A stretch of DNA of 64,000 nt, from NCBI RefSeq assembly GCF_001308015.1, contig NZ_LGYH01000005.1, positions 1 through 64,000 on the forward strand, written 5' to 3'. Within the stretch, counting starts at the first letter, position 1. Each line of letters starts with the position of its first letter. The position numbers were made by a program, and so were the translations under genes. Below are positions 13,667 to 31,635 of the stretch, in pieces. The notes under the pieces were generated by a model. The model made no database searches. It had not been told where the DNA came from and saw only the letters and a program-made list of their open reading frames with translations. Source of the DNA: Neisseria sp. 83E34. GTDB taxonomy: Bacteria; Pseudomonadota; Gammaproteobacteria; Burkholderiales; Neisseriaceae.

Positions 13667-13856
13667 AGCCTTCTCGGAAACCTTTATCCATCAAGGCTTG
13701 CTTAGCCCTGATTCGCTAAAGCTCCCCGAAAATGCGAAAAGCGAGTATAACACAGCCTGATTCCGCCACACCCGCTTTCCTAATTTCCTGATTGTTAAAG
13801 AACAATCCCGCATCGCCAACCTCCCCGCATTTTCATGAGAACCATACGTTAGCGAT
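13667..13856 (-). promoter_or_regulatory. CRISPR leader
   Basis: The 190 bp between cas2 and the first repeat is non-coding. On the minus strand it holds an extended -10 TGT-TATACT (13752..13744), about 70 bp before the first repeat, and the inverted repeat GATTGTT-AAAG-AACAATC at 13790-13807. Both fit a leader with a promoter and a protein-binding site for spacer integration. Confidence 0.7.
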
Positions 13857-14150
13857 TCACACGATCAGCGTATCCTGAAACACATCTACCGCCTCCTTCG
13901 CACCATGATGCTCCACCTTGCGCCGCCATTTGCTGCCCAGATGGTAAAAACGCAGGCTGTCTGTTTCAGGCTGGTAAGTGTCCAATAGCTTGGCTTTCAG
14001 TTTTACCCACTGATCAGGCGTAACGTCGCACTCGAATACCGAATATTGCACGCGCACGCCGTAATCCAAACAATGTTTGGCGATGCGCCGCAGCCTCGCC
14101 TGCCCTGCCGCGTCTTCCAGCGAAATATCATAAGTAATCAACATCAACAC
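13857..14150 (-). CDS. cas2: CRISPR endonuclease/integrase subunit Cas2
   Basis: This 97-aa ferredoxin-fold protein forms the Cas1-Cas2 spacer integrase. MLITYDISLEDAAGQARLRRIAKHCLDYGVRVQYSVFEC is a standard Cas2 N-terminus. The GTG at 14150 has AGGGG seven bases upstream and is preferred to the ATG two codons later. A 73-nt perfect hairpin separates it from cas1, and the leader follows directly. Confidence 0.95.
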   Translation of the reverse strand: MLMLITYDISLEDAAGQARLRRIAKHCLDYGVRVQYSVFECDVTPDQWVKLKAKLLDTYQPETDSLRFYHLGSKWRRKVEHHGAKEAVDVFQDTLIV

Positions 14151-14168
14151 ACTATTTCCCCTTATCCA

Positions 14169-14241
14169 TTTTTCAGACAGGCATTTTCAGACGGCCTCAA
14201 AGATTACCCGAAAGGCCGTCTGAAAATGCCTGTCTGAAAAA
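14169..14241. repeat. 29-bp perfect inverted repeat carrying two DUS dialects, between cas1 and cas2
   Basis: Each 29-nt arm contains one TGCCTGTCTGAA (TG-wadDUS) and one AGGCCGTCTGAA (AG-DUS). The arms are perfect reverse complements around a 15-nt loop, bracketed by five T and five A. It starts one base from the cas1 stop codon and could terminate or attenuate transcription into cas2. Confidence 0.85.
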
Positions 14242-14242
14242 C

Positions 14243-15256
14243 TCAACGCATCAAAAACGGCGGATATTCCGCCAAATCCCCGCGCAGATGCCGCGCCAGC
14301 AGCATCGCCTGAATATGCGGCAGCAGGCCGATTTCCACTTCCTCCTGCAAAAACGGATGCACAATCTTTTCCTGCTTTTTGCTTTGCAGCGTTTGAAACA
14401 GCAACTTGCGCACTTCCGGCTTAATATTCACCGCACCGCCCGCCTCCGTTACAAAATCCTGCGGCTTGATTTGCCCGCGGTTAATCAGGCTCAACACCAT
14501 CCTGTCCACCCACCACGCGCGGAACTCTTCCAAAATATCCTGCGCCAAACTGTCGCGCCCCGGCCGATCAGCATGCAGAAAACCCACCTGCGGATCCAAG
14601 CCCACGCCCTGCAACGCCCCGCTGATGTCCTTGCCCAGCACCGCATACAGAAAAGACAGCAGCGCATTCACCCCATCACGCGGCGGGCGACGGTTGCGGC
14701 CGTCAAAATCAAAACCGCTTTTCTCCGCAAGCAAATGCCGGAACACCCCGAAATAACGCGCCGCCGCATCGCCCTCAATCCCGCGAACCTTGTCCAAACA
14801 CTCCGCCCGCTTCAACTGCTGCAAAGAAAAATTCAACGCCGTTACCGCCGCCAGCACCTCCGCATGCTCGCCATGATTGCGCAAACGCCGCTGCAACACC
14901 CGCTTGGCCGACTGAATCTTCGCCGCAATAATATGCCGCGCAATCGGCACAGGATTCTGCTCCGACAGCCGATACTGCGCCCGCCGCAACAACACATTAC
15001 CACTCTGACGCCCCTGCAAACGCCCCAAAAACCGTCCGTTTTCGGTAAAAAACGCCAAATTCACATTGTTTTCACCGCAAAACCCCATCAAAAAAGGCGA
15101 CACCAACACGTTACCGAAACAAAAAATATGCCCAATCGCATGCACCGGCAACTGCGCCACCTTCTTGCGCTCCTGCTCCACCACCAGCGTTTCCCGCTCC
15201 TTATGCAGATAACTGCCTTGAGTGGTGATATAGAGCGTGTTTTGCAGTTTGCGCAT
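14243..15256 (-). CDS. cas1: CRISPR integrase Cas1 (type I-C)
   Basis: The 337-aa metal-dependent integrase inserts new spacers with Cas2. The N-terminus MRKLQNTLYITTQGSYLHKERETLVVE is typical of I-C Cas1. Likely metal ligands are Glu in RGIEGDAAARYF, His in GFLHADRPGR and Asp in LAQDILEEF. AAGGAG lies 11 bases before the ATG at 15256. In a canonical I-C operon cas1 follows cas4 directly; here a two-gene AT-rich insert separates them. Confidence 0.96.
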   Translation of the reverse strand: MRKLQNTLYITTQGSYLHKERETLVVEQERKKVAQLPVHAIGHIFCFGNVLVSPFLMGFCGENNVNLAFFTENGRFLGRLQGRQSGNVLLRRAQYRLSEQNPVPIARHIIAAKIQSAKRVLQRRLRNHGEHAEVLAAVTALNFSLQQLKRAECLDKVRGIEGDAAARYFGVFRHLLAEKSGFDFDGRNRRPPRDGVNALLSFLYAVLGKDISGALQGVGLDPQVGFLHADRPGRDSLAQDILEEFRAWWVDRMVLSLINRGQIKPQDFVTEAGGAVNIKPEVRKLLFQTLQSKKQEKIVHPFLQEEVEIGLLPHIQAMLLARHLRGDLAEYPPFLMR

Positions 15257-15431
15257 GGTTTGAAAAACTCCTTGAATTTTGACCGCGCTTTAAAGTGCCA
15301 TCTAAATGATGATTTAGGCTTCAGACGGTATCGTAGTAATCATAGGTTGAGTTGGAAATCCAGTACTTTTATTAATTTAATGATTTTAATAGGTTTTTAT
15401 CCAACCAACTAACAATCCATTTAATTTATTT

Positions 15432-16373
15432 TTAATCAATTTTTATATTGCAATTTTTCGCAATACATTTCCCAAATGGAGTTAATGGCTTAATTAATTC
15501 ATCAAGATTAGAAACATCTATTTTCATAAACTCAATAAACTCAATAAAATTTGGGAAATCAATTTTTATATTTTCTTCTTTATAATCATTTATTCCTAAA
15601 CCCTTTCCAAAAACTTGTAATGTACTAATTCTATAAGACTTATCAGAAAAAATCATATTATTCAAAGCAAGTAAATCAATATCCACAGGAGAAGAAATAT
15701 TATTCATAAAGAATTTTGATATATTATTTATATATCCTTTATAAATATCTTCTGCCTTTTTCCGTAAATCAACCTGCAAATCTAGTGAGGCAACTTTACT
15801 ATCAATTAATTGGTAAACATCGAAAATATTACTAGAAAATTGACCCTCACTATAGTTAACCAAAACATATGGGACATCTCTAAGATATCTAATGAAACAC
15901 AAGAAAAATATCTGATCCTTGTTTAAGTATTTTACATATGAGATAGCCTGATTAATCAAATAGTCATTGCTATTACTATTTAGCTTATCCATTAATAAAT
16001 TTGCCAATAAATCATTTAATGAAATATCATTTTTTGTTCCAACTTGGTTAACTATCTCACTAATTAAACTTTGTACTTCAGAAGAAGCAAATCTTTTCTC
16101 CATTTCTTCATCAATACGACCACTTAAAGCCTCATCGACAGTTGAACTTAGCTTTTCATGGAATTGAAATGCGAAATCTGCAATGGCTTTATATGATTCA
16201 GATTTTGCATCTGCTATCAAGCTAGGTAACTTAGCAGAAAATAGTGTCTCAAATAGATTTTTAATTTCAGAAAATGAAAGCCCAATATTTACACTACCAG
16301 TAATCTCCCCTTGGTTTTGCAAAGATACAGAATTTTCACCCTGAAATAATGTTAAATTTTTTCCCAAAACCAT
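15432..16373 (-). CDS. LPO_1073/Vpar_1526-like protein with N-terminal repeat motif
   Basis: A 313-aa protein from a strikingly AT-rich gene lying between cas4 and cas1. Its N-terminus (GENSVSLQNQGEITGSVNI, residues 12-30) followed by a helical domain (LSFSEIKNLFETLF) reminds me of the uncharacterised LPO_1073/Vpar_1526 family. The remainder is helical with no recognisable catalytic motif. The same 19-residue motif recurs at the C-terminus of the upstream gene's product. The start is three bases after that gene's stop, with AAGGA inside the upstream coding end, so the two are coupled. Defence function is an inference from location and motif pairing. Confidence 0.7.
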   Translation of the reverse strand: MVLGKNLTLFQGENSVSLQNQGEITGSVNIGLSFSEIKNLFETLFSAKLPSLIADAKSESYKAIADFAFQFHEKLSSTVDEALSGRIDEEMEKRFASSEVQSLISEIVNQVGTKNDISLNDLLANLLMDKLNSNSNDYLINQAISYVKYLNKDQIFFLCFIRYLRDVPYVLVNYSEGQFSSNIFDVYQLIDSKVASLDLQVDLRKKAEDIYKGYINNISKFFMNNISSPVDIDLLALNNMIFSDKSYRISTLQVFGKGLGINDYKEENIKIDFPNFIEFIEFMKIDVSNLDELIKPLTPFGKCIAKNCNIKID

Positions 16374-16376
16374 TTT

Positions 16377-16640
16377 TCAATCCTTTTTGTTTATTTGATT
16401 AATGTTTATATTGCCGTTAATTTTTCCAGAATTCTGAATACTTTGTATATTATCTCCATTTAAATTAGCACTTATGTTATTTTTCACAAATCTATCTCTA
16501 ATGTAACTAGCTCCAAATAATAACGACAAAGCACCAAATATCATGGACCAGCTACTAGGATTCAATCCCAGAAAAGACTTATCAAAAATATTTGTAATAA
16601 AAGCCAAAAGCAACCAAACAATAACGAAAAATATTTTCAC
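16377..16640 (-). CDS. Small two-helix membrane protein with C-terminal GDN...NINI motif
   Basis: I place the start at the GTG at 16640, with AGGAGA four bases upstream and 25 bp after the cas4 stop; longer frames run into cas4. The 87-aa product has two hydrophobic segments (about residues 3-19 and 31-46) and a basic stretch RDRFVK. A polar tail holds GDNIQSIQNSGKINGNINI at residues 62-80. Ten of 19 tail positions are identical to the N-terminal motif of the next protein. By the positive-inside rule the tail is probably cytosolic. It could be a membrane effector or anchor recruited through that shared motif. Confidence 0.72.
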   Translation of the reverse strand: MKIFFVIVWLLLAFITNIFDKSFLGLNPSSWSMIFGALSLLFGASYIRDRFVKNNISANLNGDNIQSIQNSGKINGNININQINKKD

Positions 16641-16665
16641 ATACTCTCCTAAAAATACCAATAAA

Positions 16666-17277
16666 TCAAAAGCATTTGCCAAACAACCCTTCCACATACC
16701 CCACCGACCGATCCCTCTCCATCAACTTCGGCTGACAAACCTCAATCAACGAACAGGCTTTACAGCGTTTGCCGTATTCCGGCGGCGGGGTGATACCGCT
16801 TTCCAAAAGCCCGCGCACTTGTGCGATGGTATCCAGCGTTTCTGCCCTGAGGCCGTCTGAAAACACAATCGATACGCGGTGGCGGGTTTGCATGTACCAC
16901 AATGCGCCTTCTGCCACCGTTTGCCCGGTCATTTCTTCCAAACACAGCGCTTGAGCACAAAGCTGGATTTCGTCGAACGGTTCGGGCTTGGGTTTGCCAC
17001 GCTTGTATTCGACAGGTTTCAGACGGCCTGTCTGAATATCGCGCTCGACCATATCCAACACGCCGTGCACGCCTAAGTTTTCTGCCGACACATGCACGCT
17101 GCGCTCGAAGCGCACGCCCTTGCGCATTTCCGGCTCGCCGCCATCCACCCGCTCATGCAACGCACGACCTTGTGCGGTCAAAAAATTCTCCGCCCATACT
17201 TGTTCGTTATGAATCAAAGCACACTGGCGCGGACAAAAGGCGTAGTGTTGCAGGGCGGAGAGTGGGATGCTTGTCAT
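16666..17277 (-). CDS. cas4: CRISPR-associated exonuclease Cas4
   Basis: This 203-aa PD-(D/E)XK nuclease trims prespacers and selects the PAM during adaptation. The iron-sulfur cysteines are visible as FCPRQC near the N-terminus and CKACSLIEVC near the C-terminus, and the nuclease core shows GVLDMVE and KPVEYKRGKP. The gene carries two AG-DUS copies and a fused uptake site (TTCAGACGGCCTGTCTGAA) near 17030. It is separated from cas7 by the RHH gene. Confidence 0.94.
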   Translation of the reverse strand: MTSIPLSALQHYAFCPRQCALIHNEQVWAENFLTAQGRALHERVDGGEPEMRKGVRFERSVHVSAENLGVHGVLDMVERDIQTGRLKPVEYKRGKPKPEPFDEIQLCAQALCLEEMTGQTVAEGALWYMQTRHRVSIVFSDGLRAETLDTIAQVRGLLESGITPPPEYGKRCKACSLIEVCQPKLMERDRSVGYVEGLFGKCF

Positions 17278-17296
17278 GGTATTTTTCTCACCAATC

Positions 17297-17334
17297 AGCG
17301 CTTATTGTGGTAAAAAATACTCATTCTAAGCGCT
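17297..17334. promoter_or_regulatory. AGCGCTTA inverted repeat upstream of cas4
   Basis: AGCGCTTA (17297-17304) and TAAGCGCT (17327-17334) flank 22 AT-rich bases, 20 bp upstream of the cas4 start. It may be an operator or a weak terminator for the RHH gene, whose stop lies 19 bp further upstream. Confidence 0.4.
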
Positions 17335-17352
17335 TTATATAGATTATTTTCA

Positions 17353-17976
17353 TCATTTTTTAACCTCTAATAATAACTTTTCTCCATCAGCAATTCGTGC
17401 CAAGGTTTGGGCAAATGGAAATGAACGGTTCAAAATCCTTTTAACTTCACTGGCCTTAATAGCTTTTGATAAACGGGTAAAGCCCTCCAAACGCTGATAA
17501 TAGGTTTTATCTTCCCTTCCATAATGCGGTGCTTTTTCCAGCTTGCCTGATGCTTGCCCGAATGCCACGATTCCTTGCCCTGATTCGTAGAGAAATACCC
17601 AGTCGCCTTTTTTGAATTTAGCAATTTTCTCTTTATAGCCATCTTCAAATGCCGCCGCCACTTGTTTTTCCAACATAAAATCATGATCATCGATATCATT
17701 AACTTTATTGGTATTGAGCAAAAAATATTGGGTTGATTGCTCGGCATCCACCTCCTCCAGTTCCTCATTTGCCTGCTCCTCGAACCGCTTTTTCCACGGA
17801 ACAATAATTTGCTCTGTAATCAGGCGGTGCAACAGTTCTTGTCGCGACATGTCAAAACTTTCAGCGATTTCCTGCAAGATCAAGTCTTCTTTTACGGAAA
17901 GGCGAATACTGAATGTTGTTTTTTCCTGGTTTTTTTCAACAAATTCATTTTCCAAGCTTTGGATGAAATTTTTCAT
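17353..17976 (-). CDS. RHH protein with EVE/PUA-like C-terminus
   Basis: A 207-aa protein between cas7 and cas4, not a standard I-C component. Residues about 20-55 (TTFSIRLSVKEDLILQEIAESFDMSRQELLHRLI) look like a ribbon-helix-helix DNA-binding domain. The C-terminal half (about 115-205, GDWVFLYESGQGIVAFGQASGKLE then a YQRLEGF segment) resembles EVE/PUA-like domains that bind modified bases in other proteins. The gene has its own promoter overlapped by a palindrome, as for an autorepressor, and AAAGGAG before the ATG. AT-rich upstream DNA suggests separate acquisition. It may regulate cas expression or sense modified nucleic acid; both are inferences. Confidence 0.7.
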   Translation of the reverse strand: MKNFIQSLENEFVEKNQEKTTFSIRLSVKEDLILQEIAESFDMSRQELLHRLITEQIIVPWKKRFEEQANEELEEVDAEQSTQYFLLNTNKVNDIDDHDFMLEKQVAAAFEDGYKEKIAKFKKGDWVFLYESGQGIVAFGQASGKLEKAPHYGREDKTYYQRLEGFTRLSKAIKASEVKRILNRSFPFAQTLARIADGEKLLLEVKK

Positions 17977-21569: not shown

Positions 21570-24263
21570 TCAGACGGCCTTTTTCTCAAACCGCAAAAAA
21601 TCCGCCAATTTTTTGGCTTCACTCACTTCATCATGAGGAATCAACAGATAACGCCACGCTTTCGTGCCGTGTTGGCTGGCGTAATTGGATGCGTGTTTGC
21701 ACCATGTGCTTGCCGCTTGGGCCTTGGCTTGCACTTCAGCACTATCCAAATCAGCATGCGCCTTGGTTTCCGCCATCAAAATACAATCCTCCGTTTCTGC
21801 CACAAAATCGGGCAAATATTCTTTTTGCTCCATACCCAGTTTGTAATCTATTTGGAACTGCCCCTTGGCGGGTTTGAACCATTTTTGTGCATCACGCTCC
21901 AAAATCACGGCAAAGCGGCGTTCGGTGTCGGAATCAAATTTTTGCAACGGATACAGACATTTTGCGAAATGGCCGAACAACATATTTTTGATGCGCGTTT
22001 TGTCGGTCACGGTATCGCGCACCGAATGCACGGCTTCGTTGGCGGCCACTGTATAGACACAAGGTTTGAGCGTGCTAAACCCTTGACTGACTTTGGCTTC
22101 GTAGCCAGCGGCCTTTTCCCAAAAGTGTGCGACCATTTGCGCATGAATTTCACGGGCAATCAGGCGGCGTTCTTTGTCCAGCACATTCAAGGCTTCTTCC
22201 TCACTTAAATAGCTGTGCAAATGCGCCACCATTTGTCCTGCCAAATCATACAAAAGCTCGGACTGGGTGAAGTAATCAATATCGTCAAAATCAATCAGCG
22301 CATGAACGATATAGTCTTCGGGACGTTTTTCAGTCAGCCCCATTTCCCGTGCCAAGCTGGTTTGCTCGTTGGTATGCAGATTGTGAATGGTGATTTCCCG
22401 TTCGCTCGGCTGCAGATGCAACCGGCTGACATCCAAAGTGAACGGATGAAAACCCGTGCTCACCTCGCCGCTCGGCACAACGGTAATGCGCGGAATATCG
22501 ATGGTGCTGTCCACCATCACCTTTGTGGTTTTGGCAACAATACCAGCCACATCCGGCGTATCTGCCATTGGCAATTCAGCCTGTGCCGGCTGCAGGCGTT
22601 TTTGCACCTCGGCGGTAATTTGTGCCTGTATATCTGACTGCAATAATGCTTGCGAAGTCGGTGCATCATCAGGCCTGCGGCCATATTGTGCCGCCACCTC
22701 CATCACCACACGGGCAATGCGTTTTTCATGTTCGTTGGTAAAAACGGGTTGATAAGATTGTGGTTCTTGTGCCGACATATTTTCAGACGGCCTCTCAGCC
22801 AACCCCAAACACACCTCCATACTGCTGGCTACCTGAACGCTGACTTTTTCATCATCTTGGCAGGGTGCTTCCAAAATCACCTGCTGCAAACGCAGCACCG
22901 AATCGCCTTGATTGGCTTCATCAATAATTTCCTGAAAACGGTCATGGGCAATGATATTGAGCCTGTCCACCGCCGCCACGCCGGTACGCTTGCCATAGGG
23001 CAAACGCAAACCGCGTCCGATGGATTGCTCAATCAAGGTACGGGCATTGGCAGCACGCAGCGGCACGATGGTATAAAGATTGGTCACATCCCAACCTTCT
23101 TTCAACATATTAACGTGAATCACAATCTCGGTCGGCTCATCCACGCTTTCCACCGCCAGCAAACGGGCAATCATTTCTTCTTCGTCTTTGCCCGATTTGC
23201 TCGAATCCACCTGAATCACCTTGCCGCGATAACGCCCGCCGTGAAAGTTTTCCGACTCCATCAAAGCCAGCAAAGCCGTTGCATGCGTAGTATCGCGGGC
23301 AATCACCAGCATAAAGGGCTTAACCGGCTTGACGCCGTTTTCGCGCGCATAGGTAAGCAACTCTACCTTGGTGTTTTCATGCAAACGCACGCCGTCTTCC
23401 AATTTGATTTTCTCGATTTCTTCAAGCGTATAGTCTTTGGCATTGAAATTACGCTGAGTGACGACGGCCGGCACTTTCACAAAACCGTCCTCCAGCGCCC
23501 GCGCAAGAGGATAATCGACAATCACATTTTTAAACGGCTGCGGTGCTTTTCCCGTTTCTACAAAAGGCGTGGCGGTCAATTCCAAACCCAATAACGGTTT
23601 CAATTCATTAATCGCCCGCATACCGGCTTGTGCACGATAGCGGTGCGATTCGTCCATTAACAGCACCAAATCGGGCAAATTCGCCAAATAATTGAAATAA
23701 CTGTCGCCCAGCACCTCGCGCATCCGCTTGATACGCGGTTCTTTGCCGCCGCGCACTTCAGAATTGATTTTGGCGATATTGAAAATGTTGATGCGTACCT
23801 CCGTTATCCAGTCGCCGGAAGCAATATCCTGCCGCTCGTAATCTTCGCCGGTAATCACCCGTGGCGGATGAAGGGCAAATTCACTAATCCCCTTAAACAC
23901 ATATTTAGGGGTATTAGGCGAAAAGTCGGCAATCAGCTTGTTGTAAATGGTGAGGTTGGGCGCAAGCACAAAAAAATTGTTGATGCCGTGCGCCAAATGC
24001 AGATAAGCAATAAACGCACCCATTAAGCGGGTTTTGCCCACGCCCGTTGCCAGCGCAAAACACAAAGACGGAAACTCGCGCTCAAAATCCTGTAAAGTGG
24101 CGAATTTGCCTTTCAAAATCTCCAAAACCGCCGCCACATCACGCTCGTGCTTGAGCATCTGTGGCGCGGCATCCAAAGCCTGTTTTAACTTCGCCAAACT
24201 CTCCGCCTGCGGCGTGCGTAGCGACAGGCGGCCGTTGATATGGTGTTGTACCCGTGTGGTCAT
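21570..24263 (-). CDS. Type III restriction Res-like helicase-nuclease
   Basis: The 897-aa protein has a DEAD/DEAH helicase core: Walker A FALATGVGKTRLMGAF, the box LVLLMDESHRYRAQ, motif III LELTATPF and motif VI IEQSIGRGLRLPYG. A C-terminal PD-(D/E)XK site reads PDFVAETEDCILMAETKA. It resembles Res subunits that translocate and cut DNA with a Mod methyltransferase. The methyltransferase lies two genes upstream, separated by a broken DUF1016 gene. Its stop lies 108 bp before cas5. It contains AG-DUS copies, suggesting arrival from another Neisseria. Confidence 0.88.
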   Translation of the reverse strand: MTTRVQHHINGRLSLRTPQAESLAKLKQALDAAPQMLKHERDVAAVLEILKGKFATLQDFEREFPSLCFALATGVGKTRLMGAFIAYLHLAHGINNFFVLAPNLTIYNKLIADFSPNTPKYVFKGISEFALHPPRVITGEDYERQDIASGDWITEVRINIFNIAKINSEVRGGKEPRIKRMREVLGDSYFNYLANLPDLVLLMDESHRYRAQAGMRAINELKPLLGLELTATPFVETGKAPQPFKNVIVDYPLARALEDGFVKVPAVVTQRNFNAKDYTLEEIEKIKLEDGVRLHENTKVELLTYARENGVKPVKPFMLVIARDTTHATALLALMESENFHGGRYRGKVIQVDSSKSGKDEEEMIARLLAVESVDEPTEIVIHVNMLKEGWDVTNLYTIVPLRAANARTLIEQSIGRGLRLPYGKRTGVAAVDRLNIIAHDRFQEIIDEANQGDSVLRLQQVILEAPCQDDEKVSVQVASSMEVCLGLAERPSENMSAQEPQSYQPVFTNEHEKRIARVVMEVAAQYGRRPDDAPTSQALLQSDIQAQITAEVQKRLQPAQAELPMADTPDVAGIVAKTTKVMVDSTIDIPRITVVPSGEVSTGFHPFTLDVSRLHLQPSEREITIHNLHTNEQTSLAREMGLTEKRPEDYIVHALIDFDDIDYFTQSELLYDLAGQMVAHLHSYLSEEEALNVLDKERRLIAREIHAQMVAHFWEKAAGYEAKVSQGFSTLKPCVYTVAANEAVHSVRDTVTDKTRIKNMLFGHFAKCLYPLQKFDSDTERRFAVILERDAQKWFKPAKGQFQIDYKLGMEQKEYLPDFVAETEDCILMAETKAHADLDSAEVQAKAQAASTWCKHASNYASQHGTKAWRYLLIPHDEVSEAKKLADFLRFEKKAV

Positions 24264-24297
24264 TCTAATAATCCTTTGTTATATATATTATTTTGAA

Positions 24298-25371
24298 CTA
24301 TCCGGAGAAACCGGAAAGTTGCTGATCGTTTTGCCAATCCAACAACTCATTTTCCAATTGCTCAACCGTCGGCAAATTTGTCAGCAACTGATCCGGCAAA
24401 GCCCGCACCAGCTCGTATTCAGCCACACCAATCGGCTTATCAATACCCGATAGCGCATATTCGGCAACCAAACGGTTTTGCGTTTTACACAGCAACAGTC
24501 CGATGGTTGGATTATCCTCCTCGGCTTTAATTTGCGCATCTACTGCTGCCAAATAAAAATTCAGCTGCCCGGCATGTTCGGGCTTGAATGCCGTAGCCTT
24601 AAGCTCCACCACCACATAGCATTTCAGACGGATATGGTAAAACAGTAAATCAATAAAAAACTCATCGCCATTCACTTCCAAACGATATTGCCGCCCGACA
24701 AAAGCAAAGCCGCTGCCCAACTCCAACAAAAAACGGGTAATGTGTTACACCAAAGCATTTTCAATATCCCGTTCATGTGCCTCATCCCCTAAGCCCAAAA
24801 AATCAAACAGATAGGGATCTTTAAGCGTTTCTTGCGCCAATTGTGAATGAGGCTTGGGCAGGCGGGTTTCAAAATTGGTAACGGCTTGCCCTTGCCGCTC
24901 GTGCAAACGGTTTTTGATTTGCTTTTCCAAGGTAGCACGCGACCAATTTTCAGCCATCACCTTTCGCACATAAAACAAGCGGACATCTTGCTCTTTAATA
25001 CGATTTAATAACAGAACATTATGCCCCCACGGCAATTGTCCAACAGCCTGTTGGACAATTTCAAAATCAGGCCATGCTTCGGCAAAAGCCCGCATATACA
25101 GCAGGTTGGCACGGGAAAACCCTTTCATTTCAGGAAAAGATTCGCGCAAATCACGCCCCAAGCGCTCAATCACTTTACTGCCCCAGCCCTGTGCCGCCTG
25201 CCGCTGCAAAATATCCCGCCCGATATGCCAATAAAGAGAAATCAGCTCGGCATTCACAGCTAAAACCGCTCTTTGCCGTGCCACCAGTACCCGATCTTTG
25301 ATTTCTATCAGCCACTGCCCGTAATCATTTGGCAATGATGAATTTTCCTTACCCATCACCATATTCCCCAT
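24298..25371 (-). pseudogene. DUF1016 (PDDEXK nuclease) gene split by an in-frame stop
   Basis: Residues 1-208 are the DUF1016 N-terminal domain (YWHIGRDILQRQAAQGWGSKVIERLGRDLRESFPEMKGFS). A TAA at 24747..24745 interrupts ENALV*HITRFLLELGSGFAFVGRQ, and the same frame then continues through the nuclease core DEFFIDLLFYHIRLKCYVVVELKA to GFSG. One base change would restore about 358 residues. DUF1016 proteins are YhcG-like nucleases common in defence loci. The ATG at 25371 overlaps the methyltransferase stop. A TTG at 24729 could start the nuclease half separately. Confidence 0.85.
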
Positions 25372-27049
25372 CAAACAGCCCCTCTTGCTTTTCAGGTAGC
25401 CTTTTGCCCTTTTTCGCTTTCACAGGCGGTTTCTGGTCATCCGTTTTTTCAGACAGGGGTTCGACTTCGGCAAAGGGCAGATTGGCGACATTCAAACTGT
25501 AATCGTCATGCCCCCATTCACAGCGTGCCAAAATCATTTTCGGGATTTTCTTTAAGGTGAGATTGGGAAAACGCTCCGCCGCCTGCGCTGCCGTGATGCC
25601 GCGCCATGCCGAACAGCAAATCAGCAAACTGCGTCCTTCGCCCACCTCATCCGACAACGCCTGCAACTGCTCGGCGGATAAGGTTTGCGTGGTCACATAA
25701 ATAAAATCCTGCTCACTGGAAAAACCATGCTGCCACCAATGGGTTTCAGACGGTCGGTAAGTAAAGCCCTCCAACTTGGCAAGCGCTTCGGCAAGCATTT
25801 CAGGGTTGTAGTCGGGGTTGATGATCGGATTACCCCATTTGTCGTTCACAATCAAAGTCGGCGCCAAACGGTAATAACGAAAACCGCCGCCGCCCTGCCA
25901 ATTCACCGCTTTGGAAATCCCGCCCTGATCGCTGCCGTCAATCACCTTTTGCAGACGTGGAATAATATGCGTGTGGCAATGCTCGCCCAGTTCCACCATA
26001 ACCCAGCGCCGTCCCATCTTATGCGCCACAGCGCCTGTGGTGCCGGAACCGGCGAAGGAATCGAGCACCAGATCGCCAGGGTTGGTGGCTAGATGGATAA
26101 TTCGTTGTAAAAGCTTTTCAGGTTTTGGTGTATCAAAAACATCTTCTGAATTAAATTGCTTGACTTCTTTTTTAGCATCTTGATTATCACCAACTTCTTC
26201 TCTTAACCATATTGTTTTTGCAACAATCCCACTTTGAACCTCATTCAGAAAACGCTTTATTCTTGGAACACCATCACCTTTTTTACCGAACCAAATTCTA
26301 TTTTCACGGATTAACTGATCTAGCTTTTCCTTAGTATATGCCCAACAGCGGCTTGCTGGCGGATGAACAACTCTACCTGACGGAGTAACTATTGGATAAT
26401 CCGTTGTAGAAGAATATGTTTTTACTGACATGTTGTCAGACATCCACACTCCTCTCGAATCATTATCAGGATTTTTATATAAGCTATTCGCTTCTTCTGT
26501 CCTCGCAAGTAAATGTGGTCTCCAAATTATTTTATTCTTGGCGTAAACCAAAATATGGTCATGAGAGTCAGACAACCACTTTGCGTCATTCTGTGGAGCA
26601 TATTTTTTCTGCCAAACCGCATTTGTTACAAAATTCCCCCGCCCAAAAATCTCATCACATAACACTTTCAAATAATGGGCTTCATTGTCATCAATGGTAA
26701 TCCACAACGAACCGTCATCAGAAAGCAAACGCTTGATAATCTCCAAACGGTCGCGCATCAATCCCAGCCAAATCGAATGCTCCAGCCCATCATCGTAATG
26801 CGTAAACGCACTGCCCGTGTTATACGGCGGATCAATAAACACACATTTCACCTTGCCGGTAAATTCCTGCTCCAACGTTTTGAGCGCAAGCAAGTTGTCG
26901 CCAAAAATCAGACGGTTATCAAACACATCCTTTTCCGACCGCACCTTGGCATGATAAGACTTATCCGCCTCTTCCAATAAAATACGGGCTTCTAACTTAG
27001 GACGTTTATGCTTGCCTATCCAAGTGAGTTCTAGTTTTTGGTTTTTCAT
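25349..27049 (-). CDS. DNA adenine N6-methyltransferase, type III Mod-like
   Basis: The 566-aa protein has the beta-class order: the catalytic motif DPPYNTG (about residues 72-78) comes before the AdoMet-binding FAGSGTTGA (about 335-343). The region between should be the target recognition domain. That stretch, roughly 26080-26680, is markedly more AT-rich than the flanking conserved motifs, as if exchanged by recombination. Its ATG overlaps the TIGR04141 stop (TAATG). It presumably protects host sites from the Res-like protein. Confidence 0.9.
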   Translation of the reverse strand: MKNQKLELTWIGKHKRPKLEARILLEEADKSYHAKVRSEKDVFDNRLIFGDNLLALKTLEQEFTGKVKCVFIDPPYNTGSAFTHYDDGLEHSIWLGLMRDRLEIIKRLLSDDGSLWITIDDNEAHYLKVLCDEIFGRGNFVTNAVWQKKYAPQNDAKWLSDSHDHILVYAKNKIIWRPHLLARTEEANSLYKNPDNDSRGVWMSDNMSVKTYSSTTDYPIVTPSGRVVHPPASRCWAYTKEKLDQLIRENRIWFGKKGDGVPRIKRFLNEVQSGIVAKTIWLREEVGDNQDAKKEVKQFNSEDVFDTPKPEKLLQRIIHLATNPGDLVLDSFAGSGTTGAVAHKMGRRWVMVELGEHCHTHIIPRLQKVIDGSDQGGISKAVNWQGGGGFRYYRLAPTLIVNDKWGNPIINPDYNPEMLAEALAKLEGFTYRPSETHWWQHGFSSEQDFIYVTTQTLSAEQLQALSDEVGEGRSLLICCSAWRGITAAQAAERFPNLTLKKIPKMILARCEWGHDDYSLNVANLPFAEVEPLSEKTDDQKPPVKAKKGKRLPEKQEGLFDGEYGDG

Positions 27050-28653
27050 TACGACACATCCGCTTTTAAATCATTAATTACAACAGGCACGATACAGATA
27101 CTAACAGACACGCCCATTAATTGAAGGCGGTTATAGCAACTGCGCAAATTTATTTTGCTAAAAAGAGGTAAATCAAGTGCAGTCGTTTTCTTATCATTGC
27201 TTGCTATGACATATACAACTTCAAACTCACTTGCTTTTGGTTTTTCATTTTTAGCGGGTAATTTATGAGTCTTCGGTAATTTTTTATTCACCAAAGCGCG
27301 AAAATTTCCATCTGACAAGATCAATTGAGTGGAAACCAAACCTTGAGAAAATAGATGACTTAATACGCTTGAGCCGCCATATCTTTTTACATGAATGAGC
27401 TTCTTATCATTTGTGTAAATATCGCAAAGCTCAATTCTGCTACTCCCACCACCATAAGATATATTTCTTTTATCCATTAACACAAATCTGCTGCCATCAC
27501 TATTTACAACTTTTTCATTATATTTATCTTCAGATTTTTCAGAATATTCAGGTAACGATATTTTTGACAAAGGAATATCTTGAATATTCTTATCTAAATT
27601 TTCCAAAAAATCACCATCAATTTTGTACCATTTTCCATTTGTTAAAGAGTACGCTCCCCCATTCAGTTCAAGCTCACAATAAATACATTGATAAACTTTC
27701 CATGTATATGTGGGCTGTTCATTTGCAACATTAATGCAATGAATATACTGCTCCCTCATCTTTTTAATAGAGAGTTCTTCGCTATCATTCCTTGTATAAG
27801 CCAAATAGCCTTCCCAACTTATATCATCATGAAGCTCTCCCCTTTTGGCTTTTTGGTATCTGAAGCCTGAAATATTTTCCCAGTTAATAACTTCAGGAAT
27901 GGAAAGCCATGTTTTTGAAAAGTCATTTTGAGCAATTTTCTCAATCAGCTTTGCGTCTAATTCATTTTTAATGGATAAATTTCTAACTTCTGATAATCTA
28001 TCTATCCAAGGAAAACTTTGTTTGTAAGATTCAGAATCAAACAAAGTTATCGCTTTATTCAAAAGCAAAGGAAGATCTTTCAACTCAAAAGGTAGCGAGA
28101 CCTTGAGTGCATCTTTTCCAGAAAGTGTTTTACAAAAATTTTTATCTTTTGGAGAACCTGTAGCTGCATACATTAAATCTTGTTCAACATCCAAGCCAAA
28201 ATCAGCAAAGCTTGTTGAAACACTGGCTTGGTTTTTCTTATGAACAGGTATAGATTCCAAAGTATGCACATCTACACTTCTTAACTTTCCCGGATCCACT
28301 GCATTCACAACAACTCGTAGCCCAAAATTTTCCTCAAAGCAATCTGGATTAAGAAGATGACGACCATATCCAAAAGTTAAAGCAAAATATCTGTCACTAT
28401 GTTTCATCAAGAGGACTGCTGCACAACCAGAACTAAATAAATGACTTAAATCATCATCTATATGAGGCTTAAACAAATTTACCCATGAAGGTGGACGAGG
28501 GGGATTTTGCTTGGAATACAAAACTAATTCTTGCCCACCCTCTATTTCCAGGACTGTTTTCTTTAAACCACCTATGCCTTGAATAGCTTGATCTTCCTGT
28601 GTTATAGATTCTTTTAACAGAAAAACTGAAAGGCTATGTGTTTTCTTTTTCAT
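27049..28653 (-). CDS. TIGR04141 (DUF6119) family protein
   Basis: A 534-aa protein that I assign to the TIGR04141 sporadically distributed family from stretches such as YFALTFGYGRHLLNPDCFEENFGLR, DKRNISYGGGSSRIELCDI and HVKRYGGSSVLSHLFSQG. The biochemical role is not established to my knowledge; members tend to sit beside restriction-type genes. The ATG at 28653 overlaps the SNF2 stop (TGATG) and its stop overlaps the methyltransferase start (TAATG), so these genes are cotranslated. The gene is AT-rich compared with its neighbours. Confidence 0.8.
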   Translation of the reverse strand: MKKKTHSLSVFLLKESITQEDQAIQGIGGLKKTVLEIEGGQELVLYSKQNPPRPPSWVNLFKPHIDDDLSHLFSSGCAAVLLMKHSDRYFALTFGYGRHLLNPDCFEENFGLRVVVNAVDPGKLRSVDVHTLESIPVHKKNQASVSTSFADFGLDVEQDLMYAATGSPKDKNFCKTLSGKDALKVSLPFELKDLPLLLNKAITLFDSESYKQSFPWIDRLSEVRNLSIKNELDAKLIEKIAQNDFSKTWLSIPEVINWENISGFRYQKAKRGELHDDISWEGYLAYTRNDSEELSIKKMREQYIHCINVANEQPTYTWKVYQCIYCELELNGGAYSLTNGKWYKIDGDFLENLDKNIQDIPLSKISLPEYSEKSEDKYNEKVVNSDGSRFVLMDKRNISYGGGSSRIELCDIYTNDKKLIHVKRYGGSSVLSHLFSQGLVSTQLILSDGNFRALVNKKLPKTHKLPAKNEKPKASEFEVVYVIASNDKKTTALDLPLFSKINLRSCYNRLQLMGVSVSICIVPVVINDLKADVS

Positions 28654-31544
28654 CACACCATCTCCCACTTAATAAAAAACATCTCTTCCTCCTCCACTTG
28701 CTGCTGCAAACTTCTCTCCAACTCTTCAATCAGTGCATTCCGCTGATTTTCAATGTCGTCCTGCCTGTCGAACAGCTCGCGTCGCTGTTTGCTGCGTTTG
28801 CTTTCCAACTCCCGCTGTTTTTTCTGCCAGGCGAGTTTTTCTTCCAATGTGGCGGCGGTAGCGGCGGTGCGGCGGATTTCTTTGATTTGCCGGTCGGTTT
28901 CTTTGATTTCTTGTTCCAGTCCGTGTTTGAGGTCGTCTGCCCAATCGTCCAGTTTTTGTACTTCTTGTTCAAAGTAATCAAGGTTGCGTTGTTGGGCTTC
29001 ATTCAGCAGGGCTTGACGGCGGGCGGTGATGTCTTGGCTTAAGGCCGTCTGAATCTGTGGCGGCTGCATGATGGGTGTTTGGTTGGCGGGCAGACCGAGC
29101 AGTTTTTCGGGGTCGGTTTCTTGCAGGATTTCGCCGCTGTCGGTAATGGCGGCTACCAGCAAATGCTGTTCTTGATTGTTAAAGGCACGAATGATAACAA
29201 GCTTGGCAATCAATTGCCCGCTTTGTCCGATATAAGGCGCCAAGGTGCTGATTTTGCCGTGCTGTTTCTGATATTCGCCGTAATCGAATATCAGTTTGGC
29301 AGGCGGGCAATGGCAGGATTTGGCTTGGGCAAGCAGGGCTTGTGCCAACGGGTGGCTGATGCGGTAGAGGTGGGCATTTCCGTTTTGGCGGGGCAGTTCG
29401 TAACGGCCTGCCGGGATATGGCTGAGGCCGTCTGAAAGGTTTTCAGGTAGGCTGTGCAGGGTAAAGCCGTGTGCATCAAAGGTTGCGTGTTTGCCCAATG
29501 CGCTGCGGGTGAAGTTGAGTAGCAGTTTTTCGTATTTGCTGCGGGTGCGCTCGCTGTCGTCAGCACGGATTTTGAGTTTCGCTTGCACTGCTTCGTCGAA
29601 GTTTTCCAGCAGGGTTTGGCGGGTTTGGGTCATGGCCGCGTTGATTTCGCCGGAAAGTTCTTGTTGCAGTGCGTCAAAACCGGTTTTGATTTCATTGGGC
29701 AGGCGGCAGCGGCGGTAGATATCGGCAATGCGGCGTTCGATATCCACACCTGAACCGATAGCACCGAGCACTTCGTCGCTGGCACCGAATACGCCTTCAA
29801 AAAGCCGGAACTTTTCTGACAGCAGTTCGTAAACGCGGGCATCGGCTTCGTTGCTTTTATCCAAAAAGTTCACCACGACCACATCGTGTTTTTGCCCGTA
29901 GCGGTGGCAGCGTCCGATACGCTGTTCGATGCGTTGCGGGTTCCACGGCAAATCATAGTTGATGACCAACGAGCAAAATTGCAGGTTGATGCCTTCGGCA
30001 CCGGCTTCGGTGGCGATCATGATGGTGGCGTGTTCTTTAAAATGCTCAACAAGGGCGGCGCGGGTATCGGCGGTTTTGGAGCCGGTGATTTTGTCGCTGC
30101 CTTCGTGTTTTTTGAGCCAGTTTTTGTAGATGGTTTGGGCTTGCGGGCCGCTGTTGGTGCCGTTAAACAATACGATACCATCGCCGTTTTCACCCGCATA
30201 GGTACTTTTGGATAAGCATTCAAGCAGGTATTCCTGGGTGCGTTTGGATTCGGTAAAGATAATGGCTTTTTGTGCCGCACCCAAGCGTTTAAGCTCGGCA
30301 AAGGCTTTTTCTAACGCACCAAACAATGCTTTGCCTTTAGCATCTTCGCGGATATTTTGTGCCAAGTTTTTAAAATGATTGAGCTCTTCGATTTCGTTGG
30401 CGATGGCTTGGTATTCGTCGCAGGTTAGGCTGGGTGTTTCGCCGTTTTCGTTTTCCCATTCTTCTGCGGTTTCGTCCAAGCTTTCATAATCTTCATCCAG
30501 CGTTTCAACGAGATCCGTGATGTTTGCCTCATTCAATACGCCTTGCAGGCGTTTGCTCATGGTATCCAAGGCACCGGCAATCGCCCGGCTGCTCGAAGCC
30601 AAAAGTTTCCATAATACCAGTGAAATCAGCTGCCTTTGCCCCTCAGGCATGGCTTGCAGATTGGAGCGGCGCAAGTAGTCTGCCACCAATGCGGAAAGTG
30701 CTTTTTCTTCGTCTGATGGTGTGAATTCCTGAACAATGGCAAGGCGTGCGGTATAAGGCACATAGGCTTGCACTTGACGGCGCAGCGTGCGTTTGCACAC
30801 CGTTTGCAATCGCTGGCGTAGGTTGTGCAGGCTTTGCTCCGAAGGTTTTGTACCGAACTGGCTGCGGAAACTGTCCAAATCGCCAAATACATGCTGATCA
30901 ATGATGCTGACCAGGCCGTACAACTCTAAAAGCGAGTTTTGCAGCGGTGTGGCAGTCAATAGCACTTTGGAAGGTACGTGGTCAAGCGCTTGTTGCAGGG
31001 TTTTGGCAATTACGTTGCCTTTTTTATAGACATTGCGCAGGCGGTGCGCCTCGTCGAGCACCACCAAATTCCAATCAACCGTTTTTAAGTCATCCGCTTT
31101 AGACTTGGCAAACTGGTAGGAACAAATAACCGGAGCGTCTTGGCGAAAGGGATTTTTACCCTGTTTTTTAATGGCGTTATAACTTTTGGCTTCCAAAATC
31201 ACGCCCTGCAAACCGAATTTTTCCTGCAATTCCTGATGCCATTGTTTGCGCAGATTAGCAGGGGTAATGATTAAAATCTTGCGTTTACGCTCTGCCCAAC
31301 GCTGCAAAATCACCAAGCCAGCTTCAATGGTTTTGCCCAAGCCCACCTCATCCGCCAGAATCACGCCTTTGGACAATGGATTTTGGCAGGCAAACAAGGC
31401 GGCATCGACCTGATGCGGGTTTAAGTCTACTTGCGAGTCCACTAAAGTGGAGGCAAGAGATTCCATGCTGCCGTTTTGTGCTTGACGGGTCAGTTGCCAG
31501 GCAAAATATTTAGACTGATGGGGGGTAAGTTTGCTTTGCTGCAT
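28653..31544 (-). CDS. SNF2-family helicase, RapA/HepA-like
   Basis: A 963-aa ATP-dependent DNA translocase. Walker A ILADEVGLGKTIEAGL, LVVLDEAHRLRNVYKKG and LLTATPLQNSLLELYG form the first lobe. INYDLPWNPQRIEQRIGRCHRYGQ is motif V-VI in the second. The C-terminal part is a long charged coiled coil (QQELDYFEQEVQKLDDW onward). I prefer the ATG at 31544 to an upstream TTG. It opens the five-gene cassette inserted after cas3 and is coupled to the TIGR04141 gene by TGATG. A SNF2 partner in a methylation-based defence system is likely but unproven. Confidence 0.88.
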   Translation of the reverse strand: MQQSKLTPHQSKYFAWQLTRQAQNGSMESLASTLVDSQVDLNPHQVDAALFACQNPLSKGVILADEVGLGKTIEAGLVILQRWAERKRKILIITPANLRKQWHQELQEKFGLQGVILEAKSYNAIKKQGKNPFRQDAPVICSYQFAKSKADDLKTVDWNLVVLDEAHRLRNVYKKGNVIAKTLQQALDHVPSKVLLTATPLQNSLLELYGLVSIIDQHVFGDLDSFRSQFGTKPSEQSLHNLRQRLQTVCKRTLRRQVQAYVPYTARLAIVQEFTPSDEEKALSALVADYLRRSNLQAMPEGQRQLISLVLWKLLASSSRAIAGALDTMSKRLQGVLNEANITDLVETLDEDYESLDETAEEWENENGETPSLTCDEYQAIANEIEELNHFKNLAQNIREDAKGKALFGALEKAFAELKRLGAAQKAIIFTESKRTQEYLLECLSKSTYAGENGDGIVLFNGTNSGPQAQTIYKNWLKKHEGSDKITGSKTADTRAALVEHFKEHATIMIATEAGAEGINLQFCSLVINYDLPWNPQRIEQRIGRCHRYGQKHDVVVVNFLDKSNEADARVYELLSEKFRLFEGVFGASDEVLGAIGSGVDIERRIADIYRRCRLPNEIKTGFDALQQELSGEINAAMTQTRQTLLENFDEAVQAKLKIRADDSERTRSKYEKLLLNFTRSALGKHATFDAHGFTLHSLPENLSDGLSHIPAGRYELPRQNGNAHLYRISHPLAQALLAQAKSCHCPPAKLIFDYGEYQKQHGKISTLAPYIGQSGQLIAKLVIIRAFNNQEQHLLVAAITDSGEILQETDPEKLLGLPANQTPIMQPPQIQTALSQDITARRQALLNEAQQRNLDYFEQEVQKLDDWADDLKHGLEQEIKETDRQIKEIRRTAATAATLEEKLAWQKKQRELESKRSKQRRELFDRQDDIENQRNALIEELERSLQQQVEEEEMFFIKWEMV

Positions 31545-31635
31545 AAGTTTTTCCAAAATTTTATTTTTAAAATTAGCCTTATAGTAAAATTCAGTTCATC
31601 TTATTATTAATATTTATATTTTATAGGTGATAATT

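Follow-up and report, generated by a model that had tools for sequence, protein, structure and literature searches.

In BASS1-10, the closest described systems, a Bell-domain protein is paired with an NLR, as set out in three reports (PMC7889193, PMC8086366, PMC12261475). The gene pair described here resembles these in layout: the genes are adjacent or overlapping in both (for BASS, according to PMC7889193), and in both a single short, Gly/Asn/Gln-rich motif marks the C-terminal end of a membrane-targeting protein and the N-terminal end of the protein encoded next to it (here, in the window and at 17 further loci). The partners themselves differ, however. In place of the NLR there is a protein of the LPO_1073 family, in which Pfam finds no NLR, NB-ARC or other NTPase domain, and the membrane protein has just 61-93 aa, with one or two helices; that of the window matches no family. 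By analogy the pair may work like BASS, but because no NLR was found it is not filed as BASS; the likeness is one of layout.

The window analyzed is a 64,000-nt stretch of Neisseria sp. 83E34 (contig NZ_LGYH01000005.1, positions 1 to 64,000 of the forward strand); repeats in it such as TTCAGACGGC are of a kind that we take to point to Neisseria. The two genes lie on its minus strand, separated by 3 bp. The upstream gene (16640 to 16377) has a GTG start preceded by TTTAGGAGAGTAT, a plausible ribosome site, and encodes an 87-aa membrane protein with the motif near its C-terminus; the downstream gene (16373 to 15432) encodes a 313-aa protein. Both are AT-rich, with 24-29% GC in 400-bp bins from 15400 to 16599 vs. 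44-60% in the bins beside them (13800-15399 and 16600-17399). An earlier, sequence-only reading of this DNA was thus accurate in calling the genes adjacent, three bases apart and AT-rich. Its description of the 87-aa product as a two-helix membrane protein also agrees with hydropathy, by which there are two hydrophobic segments, at residues 1-21 (16578-16640, minus strand) and 30-47 (16500-16553); the membrane region between and including the second segment is 16500..16578.

The first motif copy, GDNIQSIQNSGKINGNINI, is encoded at 16401-16457 in the 87-aa gene, and the second, GENSVSLQNQGEITGSVNI, at 16284-16340 as residues 12-30 of the 313-aa protein, both on the minus strand. The 10 identities in 19 positions claimed for them were reproduced, with a BLOSUM62 sum of 58. 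In 3,000 whole-protein shuffles of the two sequences the best 19-mer match never exceeded 50 (mean 26.5, sd 4.2), placing the observed score more than 7 sd over the shuffle mean. A position matrix made from 12 other pairs, with this one held out, ranks the two window motifs 1 and 2 of 61,796 window 19-mers, at modest scores (12.8 and 10.3, the next best being 8.9). Between them, the shuffles and the held-out matrix rule out chance similarity of the two copies. The motif had been placed at the protein termini, which holds in the sense of near them but not exactly at the end: seven more residues follow it in the 87-aa protein, and in the 313-aa protein it starts at residue 12.

By sequence comparison, the 313-aa protein belongs to the LPO_1073/Vpar_1526 family (NF045477), an NCBIfam family of unknown function, over the curated cut-off (61 bits against 45) with a partial profile: the match covers positions 1-138 of 257 only (15849..16283, minus strand) and lies directly after the motif. 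An E. coli relative scores 243 bits over the whole profile. The profile of the family begins immediately C-terminal to the motif and mentions no partner. PHROG 19542 matches residues 14-167, which include most of the motif. No Pfam family was above cut-off for the 313-aa protein, and no NTPase family was found for it in Pfam, PADLOC or NCBIfam, or in the relatives scanned; the 87-aa protein had no match in Pfam, PADLOC, NCBIfam or PHROGs at the limits used. As a query, the 313-aa protein gave no result in phages and plasmids, and viral contigs gave no useful result with it, with the L004 protein or with the motif pattern. Among solved structures the best match had an E of 0.014 over short stretches. 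AlphaFold gave poor models, at mean pLDDT 35.8 and 58.0, in which the motif has no strands; fold searches returned no match.

Two other sets of described families show a partial or unstable likeness. Of seven relatives of the membrane protein, two are matched in part by the PADLOC candidate PDC-M43A (E 1e-5 and 5e-6), and PDC-S47 partially matches 2 of the 6 LPO_1073 relatives scanned (E 2e-4 and 0.005). Neither matches the window's own proteins (for the 87-aa protein, no PADLOC entry including PDC-M43A did so at E 0.1), and both are phage-defense candidates only. The other is Abi_alpha (PF14337). In a profile comparison, eight LPO_1073 proteins and six Abi_alpha proteins were co-linear over 182 columns with a probability of 73% (P 3e-5), and a score of 42 vs. 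at most 25 for 60 block-shuffled controls; this probability fell to 49% with another column setting, however, and to 17% or 2% with 14 LPO_1073 proteins. Pfam finds no Abi_alpha domain in the 313-aa protein or in the relatives scanned. The comparison suggests a distant LPO_1073-Abi_alpha link, but an unstable one, to be taken as a lead only.

The 313-aa protein is confined to the window's own genome among 46 of the genus, and a profile of four proteins found no other match among 83 genomes of the family (the 46 included). Farther afield, searches with the LPO_1073 family model covered 398 genomes of the phylum, with matches in 3 (again including the window's), and 345 genomes of one order, with matches in 9, 8 of them over cut-off; 5 loci came from an alignment search against genome contigs. 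Together with E. coli, Pantoea and phage-contig matches and one motif-profile match (L028), these make 21 distinct loci, L007-L011 having been merged with L006 before counting (98-100% identical proteins).

At 18 of these 21 loci the layout is the same: a membrane protein of 61-93 aa ending in the motif is encoded directly upstream of an LPO_1073 protein beginning with it, the second gene being close behind the first or overlapping it. The pair is absent at the other three: at L023 and L110 the LPO_1073 protein lacks its N-terminal part, and L025 is a sub-threshold match with an internal stop. The sequence-only reading had named as contrary evidence homologous pairs in which the motif is not conserved in both partners; the search for these found both partners carrying it at the 18 loci and so did not refute the reading. 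A common form of the motif is G-D/N-N-S-T-x-I-Q-A/V-G-G-N/D-V. By eye, L109 has a variant in which both partners are without the central Gln, and the membrane partner at L108 seems to have two motif copies; the LPO_1073 ORF at L108 is short (163-172 aa).

Each of the 16 membrane partners analyzed for hydropathy has one or two hydrophobic segments. In 15 of them (L018 is the exception) basic residues are in excess over acidic ones directly behind the last segment, so the motif of the membrane partner is probably on the cytosolic side.

Motif similarity is greater within pairs than between them. In 13 pairs, own partners were more alike than under re-pairing (p = 1.5e-5); in 16 pairs, none of 200,000 re-pairing permutations was as good (L015 and L017, which are among the 18 loci, were excluded from both sets as near-duplicates). 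With the similarity of the rest of the LPO_1073 protein removed, a partial Mantel test on the 16 pairs still gave r = 0.38 (p = 0.00125). The window's two motifs are reciprocal best matches in both directions, and the own partner came first in 5 of 16 cases when ranked against LPO_1073 motifs and in 3 of 16 when ranked against membrane motifs. Co-variation of the motif within pairs is a trend, and motif-matched coupling of the two partners is well supported.

Another finding that the sequence-only reading had set against itself was that the motif might be an ordinary repeat of unrelated genes. This could be tested weakly, with two insensitive searches. A DNA pattern for the common form gave a match in only one of 295 genomes, where it falls within the L004 pair, and missed six pair-carrying genomes of that set (G485, G495, G518, G604, G629, G678). 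With a protein profile of the motif alone there were 19 weak matches, spread over 18 of 274 genomes, and the window's own pair was not among them. One of the 19 was the new pair at L028; a motif regex found no other membrane partner at the 19 loci, and the two matches of lowest E-value are in a gene resembling ribosomal protein L2 (by eye).

The window pair sits within a type I-C cas operon, in the order cas3, five other genes, cas5c, cas8c, cas7c, an unknown gene, cas4, the pair, cas1, cas2. Its place there, window 15257-16665, is bordered by cas4 (16666..17277) and cas1 (14243..15256), both on the minus strand. Of the 46 genomes of the genus, 28 (the window's included) have a strong cas1 match, and 25 of the 27 others were fetched, G005 and G015 (partial matches) being left out. 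In 22 of these 25, at loci within L076-L100, 0.6-2.7 kb of cargo lies between cas4 and cas1; the gap is 75 bp at L097, and at L087 and L090 cas1 is the sole cas gene in about 7.8 kb. In eight of the 25 operons the effector module shares only about 28-36% identity with that of the window; cargo is present in seven of these eight. In this genus, the space between cas4 and cas1 of type I cas operons serves as a slot for exchangeable cargo.

Recognized defense systems occupy 8 of the 22 filled slots: DarT with a macrodomain protein, a D12 methylase with an AlwI endonuclease, a methylase with a BsuBI/PstI endonuclease, an OLD nuclease, SMODS with SLATT, Shedu, and, at two loci of which one was scanned, an AbiP2 reverse transcriptase. 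Five more contain proteins of other kinds: HNH at two loci and Nmad2 at two (one of each two scanned), and PIN at one. The other nine have no clear family. The cargo type at L078, L089, L091, L098 and L100 was set by eye from a scanned relative; L084 and L089 have small unscanned ORFs only, and the 276-aa protein of L092 is likewise unscanned. Because nine of the 22 loci are without a recognized family, location alone is no proof of defense.

Other features of these operons were seen in passing. At L096, L098 and L100, cas1 aligns as two separate pieces. Between cas3 and cas5c the window has another inserted block (21570-31556), with type III restriction enzyme-like and methylase-like genes, a DUF6119 gene, a DrmD-like helicase, and a YhcG/PDC-S02-like gene in two ORFs. 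The gene between cas7c and cas4 (17353-17976, 207 aa), with weak DUF6290, YlxM-like and EVE matches that are all below cut-off, may be further cargo.

Pairs elsewhere occupy different mobile settings. The E. coli pair (L006 4731-5843) lies between the replication endonuclease gpA and portal genes of a P2-like element; the P2 gpA-gpQ hotspot has been shown to hold anti-phage systems, and also houses non-defense genes, according to PMC9122126. At least 80% of the 1.3-kb E. coli query is present in 6 of 5,426 E. coli genomes. An integron integrase is found 2.5 kb before the L016 pair and 0.3 kb before that of L017, and a recombinase-like gene (all its matches below cut-off) is 0.14 kb from that of L028. 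Two sets of neighbors may be recorded here: three opposite-strand genes without annotated function beside the E. coli pair in the P2 hotspot (L006 1675-4425), and, on a Pantoea plasmid, an annotated O-acetyl-ADP-ribose deacetylase 0.4 kb past the pair on the other strand (L109 5175-5705). The locations of the pairs, in the cas4-cas1 slot, in the P2 hotspot and near integron integrases, suggest defense.

The sequence-only reading had proposed a two-gene system of abortive-infection type. The part of this that concerns a motif-sharing two-gene unit is borne out by its recurrence at most loci, by co-variation and by the defense-rich or cassette niches; the abortive-infection function stays a proposal. 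At roughly even odds (probability about 0.5), we take the pair to be a mobile two-gene immune module of this type, acting at the membrane and signaled via the matched motifs. What can be read from the sequences as its starting point is the pairing, the motif in both partners, its co-variation, the likely cytosolic side and the locations. The LPO_1073 protein would be a cytosolic, mostly helical sensor or switch, and the 87-aa protein an inner-membrane effector whose cytosolic tail has the same motif. On infection, the sensor motif would become exposed or self-assemble, and would capture or template the matching motif of the membrane protein; this direction of signaling, like an amyloid-like (beta-arch) assembly, we infer. 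The membrane protein would then cluster, the membrane would be breached or de-energized, and the cell would stop before phage release, so that killing by membrane damage and protection from phage are presumed outcomes.

A more ambitious version can be put forward tentatively, as possible but with the odds somewhat against it: that this is an NLR-free, pair-specific, amyloid-like form of immune signaling, in which a small helical LPO_1073 sensor fires a membrane effector of 61-93 aa via a matched beta-arch motif. Integrons, P2-like phages and the cargo slot in type I CRISPR-cas operons would have spread it among bacteria, and in that slot it may back up failed CRISPR interference.

The main rival is a static membrane tether in which LPO_1073 is the effector. 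The two motifs would form a stable mixed beta structure of a non-amyloid kind that holds the LPO_1073 protein constitutively at the inner membrane, with the small protein as anchor and LPO_1073 either the effector or a sensor of events at the membrane (phage DNA entry, for example). In many partners there is a single segment and a length of only 61-72 aa, small for a pore, and pair-specific motif matching is equally compatible with a static complex; it is not obvious, however, why both sides of an anchor should carry the same motif, and no enzyme domain was found in LPO_1073 by Pfam and PADLOC scans of the 313-aa protein and the relatives scanned. Vpar_1526 is among 78 Veillonella membrane-fraction proteins in PMC5491611, which fits either reading, but these fractions had many false positives, including ribosomal proteins, according to the authors (PMC5491611). 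We consider such a tether rather unlikely.

A small hydrophobic protein next to a larger soluble one, with genes overlapping or nearly touching in mobile settings, also recalls toxin-antitoxin pairs. The small membrane protein would then be a toxin that LPO_1073 keeps inactive by way of the shared motif, with stabilization of the locus as a possible purpose, but the motif is duplicated rather than complementary, and this seems improbable; the truncated LPO_1073 copies L023 and L110 have lost the partner too, which is neutral. Nor do we give much credence to the idea that the pair is non-defense cargo that travels with mobile elements and shares these sites by happenstance. The unrecognized cargo at nine slot loci and the non-defense genes of the P2 hotspot would accommodate it, but the pair recurs in several independent defense-gene-rich niches, and its presence in just one of the 46 genomes of the genus argues against a housekeeping role.

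No description of the pair, the motif or the cas4-cas1 slot was found in searches of the open-license PMC literature; Table S5B of PMC9122126 catalogs 169 P2-hotspot systems, the E. coli pair perhaps among them. By comparison with BASS, the signaling principle would be one already known, while the novelty, as far as seen, lies in the family of the partner, the minimal size of the membrane protein and the setting.

If the proposed immune module is real, motif-templated immune signaling, known from fungal and bacterial NLR pairs, would reach to a very small NLR-free two-gene system, and LPO_1073, an unnamed protein family, would gain both a role and a partner. For this genus, the cas4-cas1 gap, with its mixture of recognized defense genes, HNH, PIN and Nmad2 proteins and unrecognized cargo, is a place to seek new defense genes.
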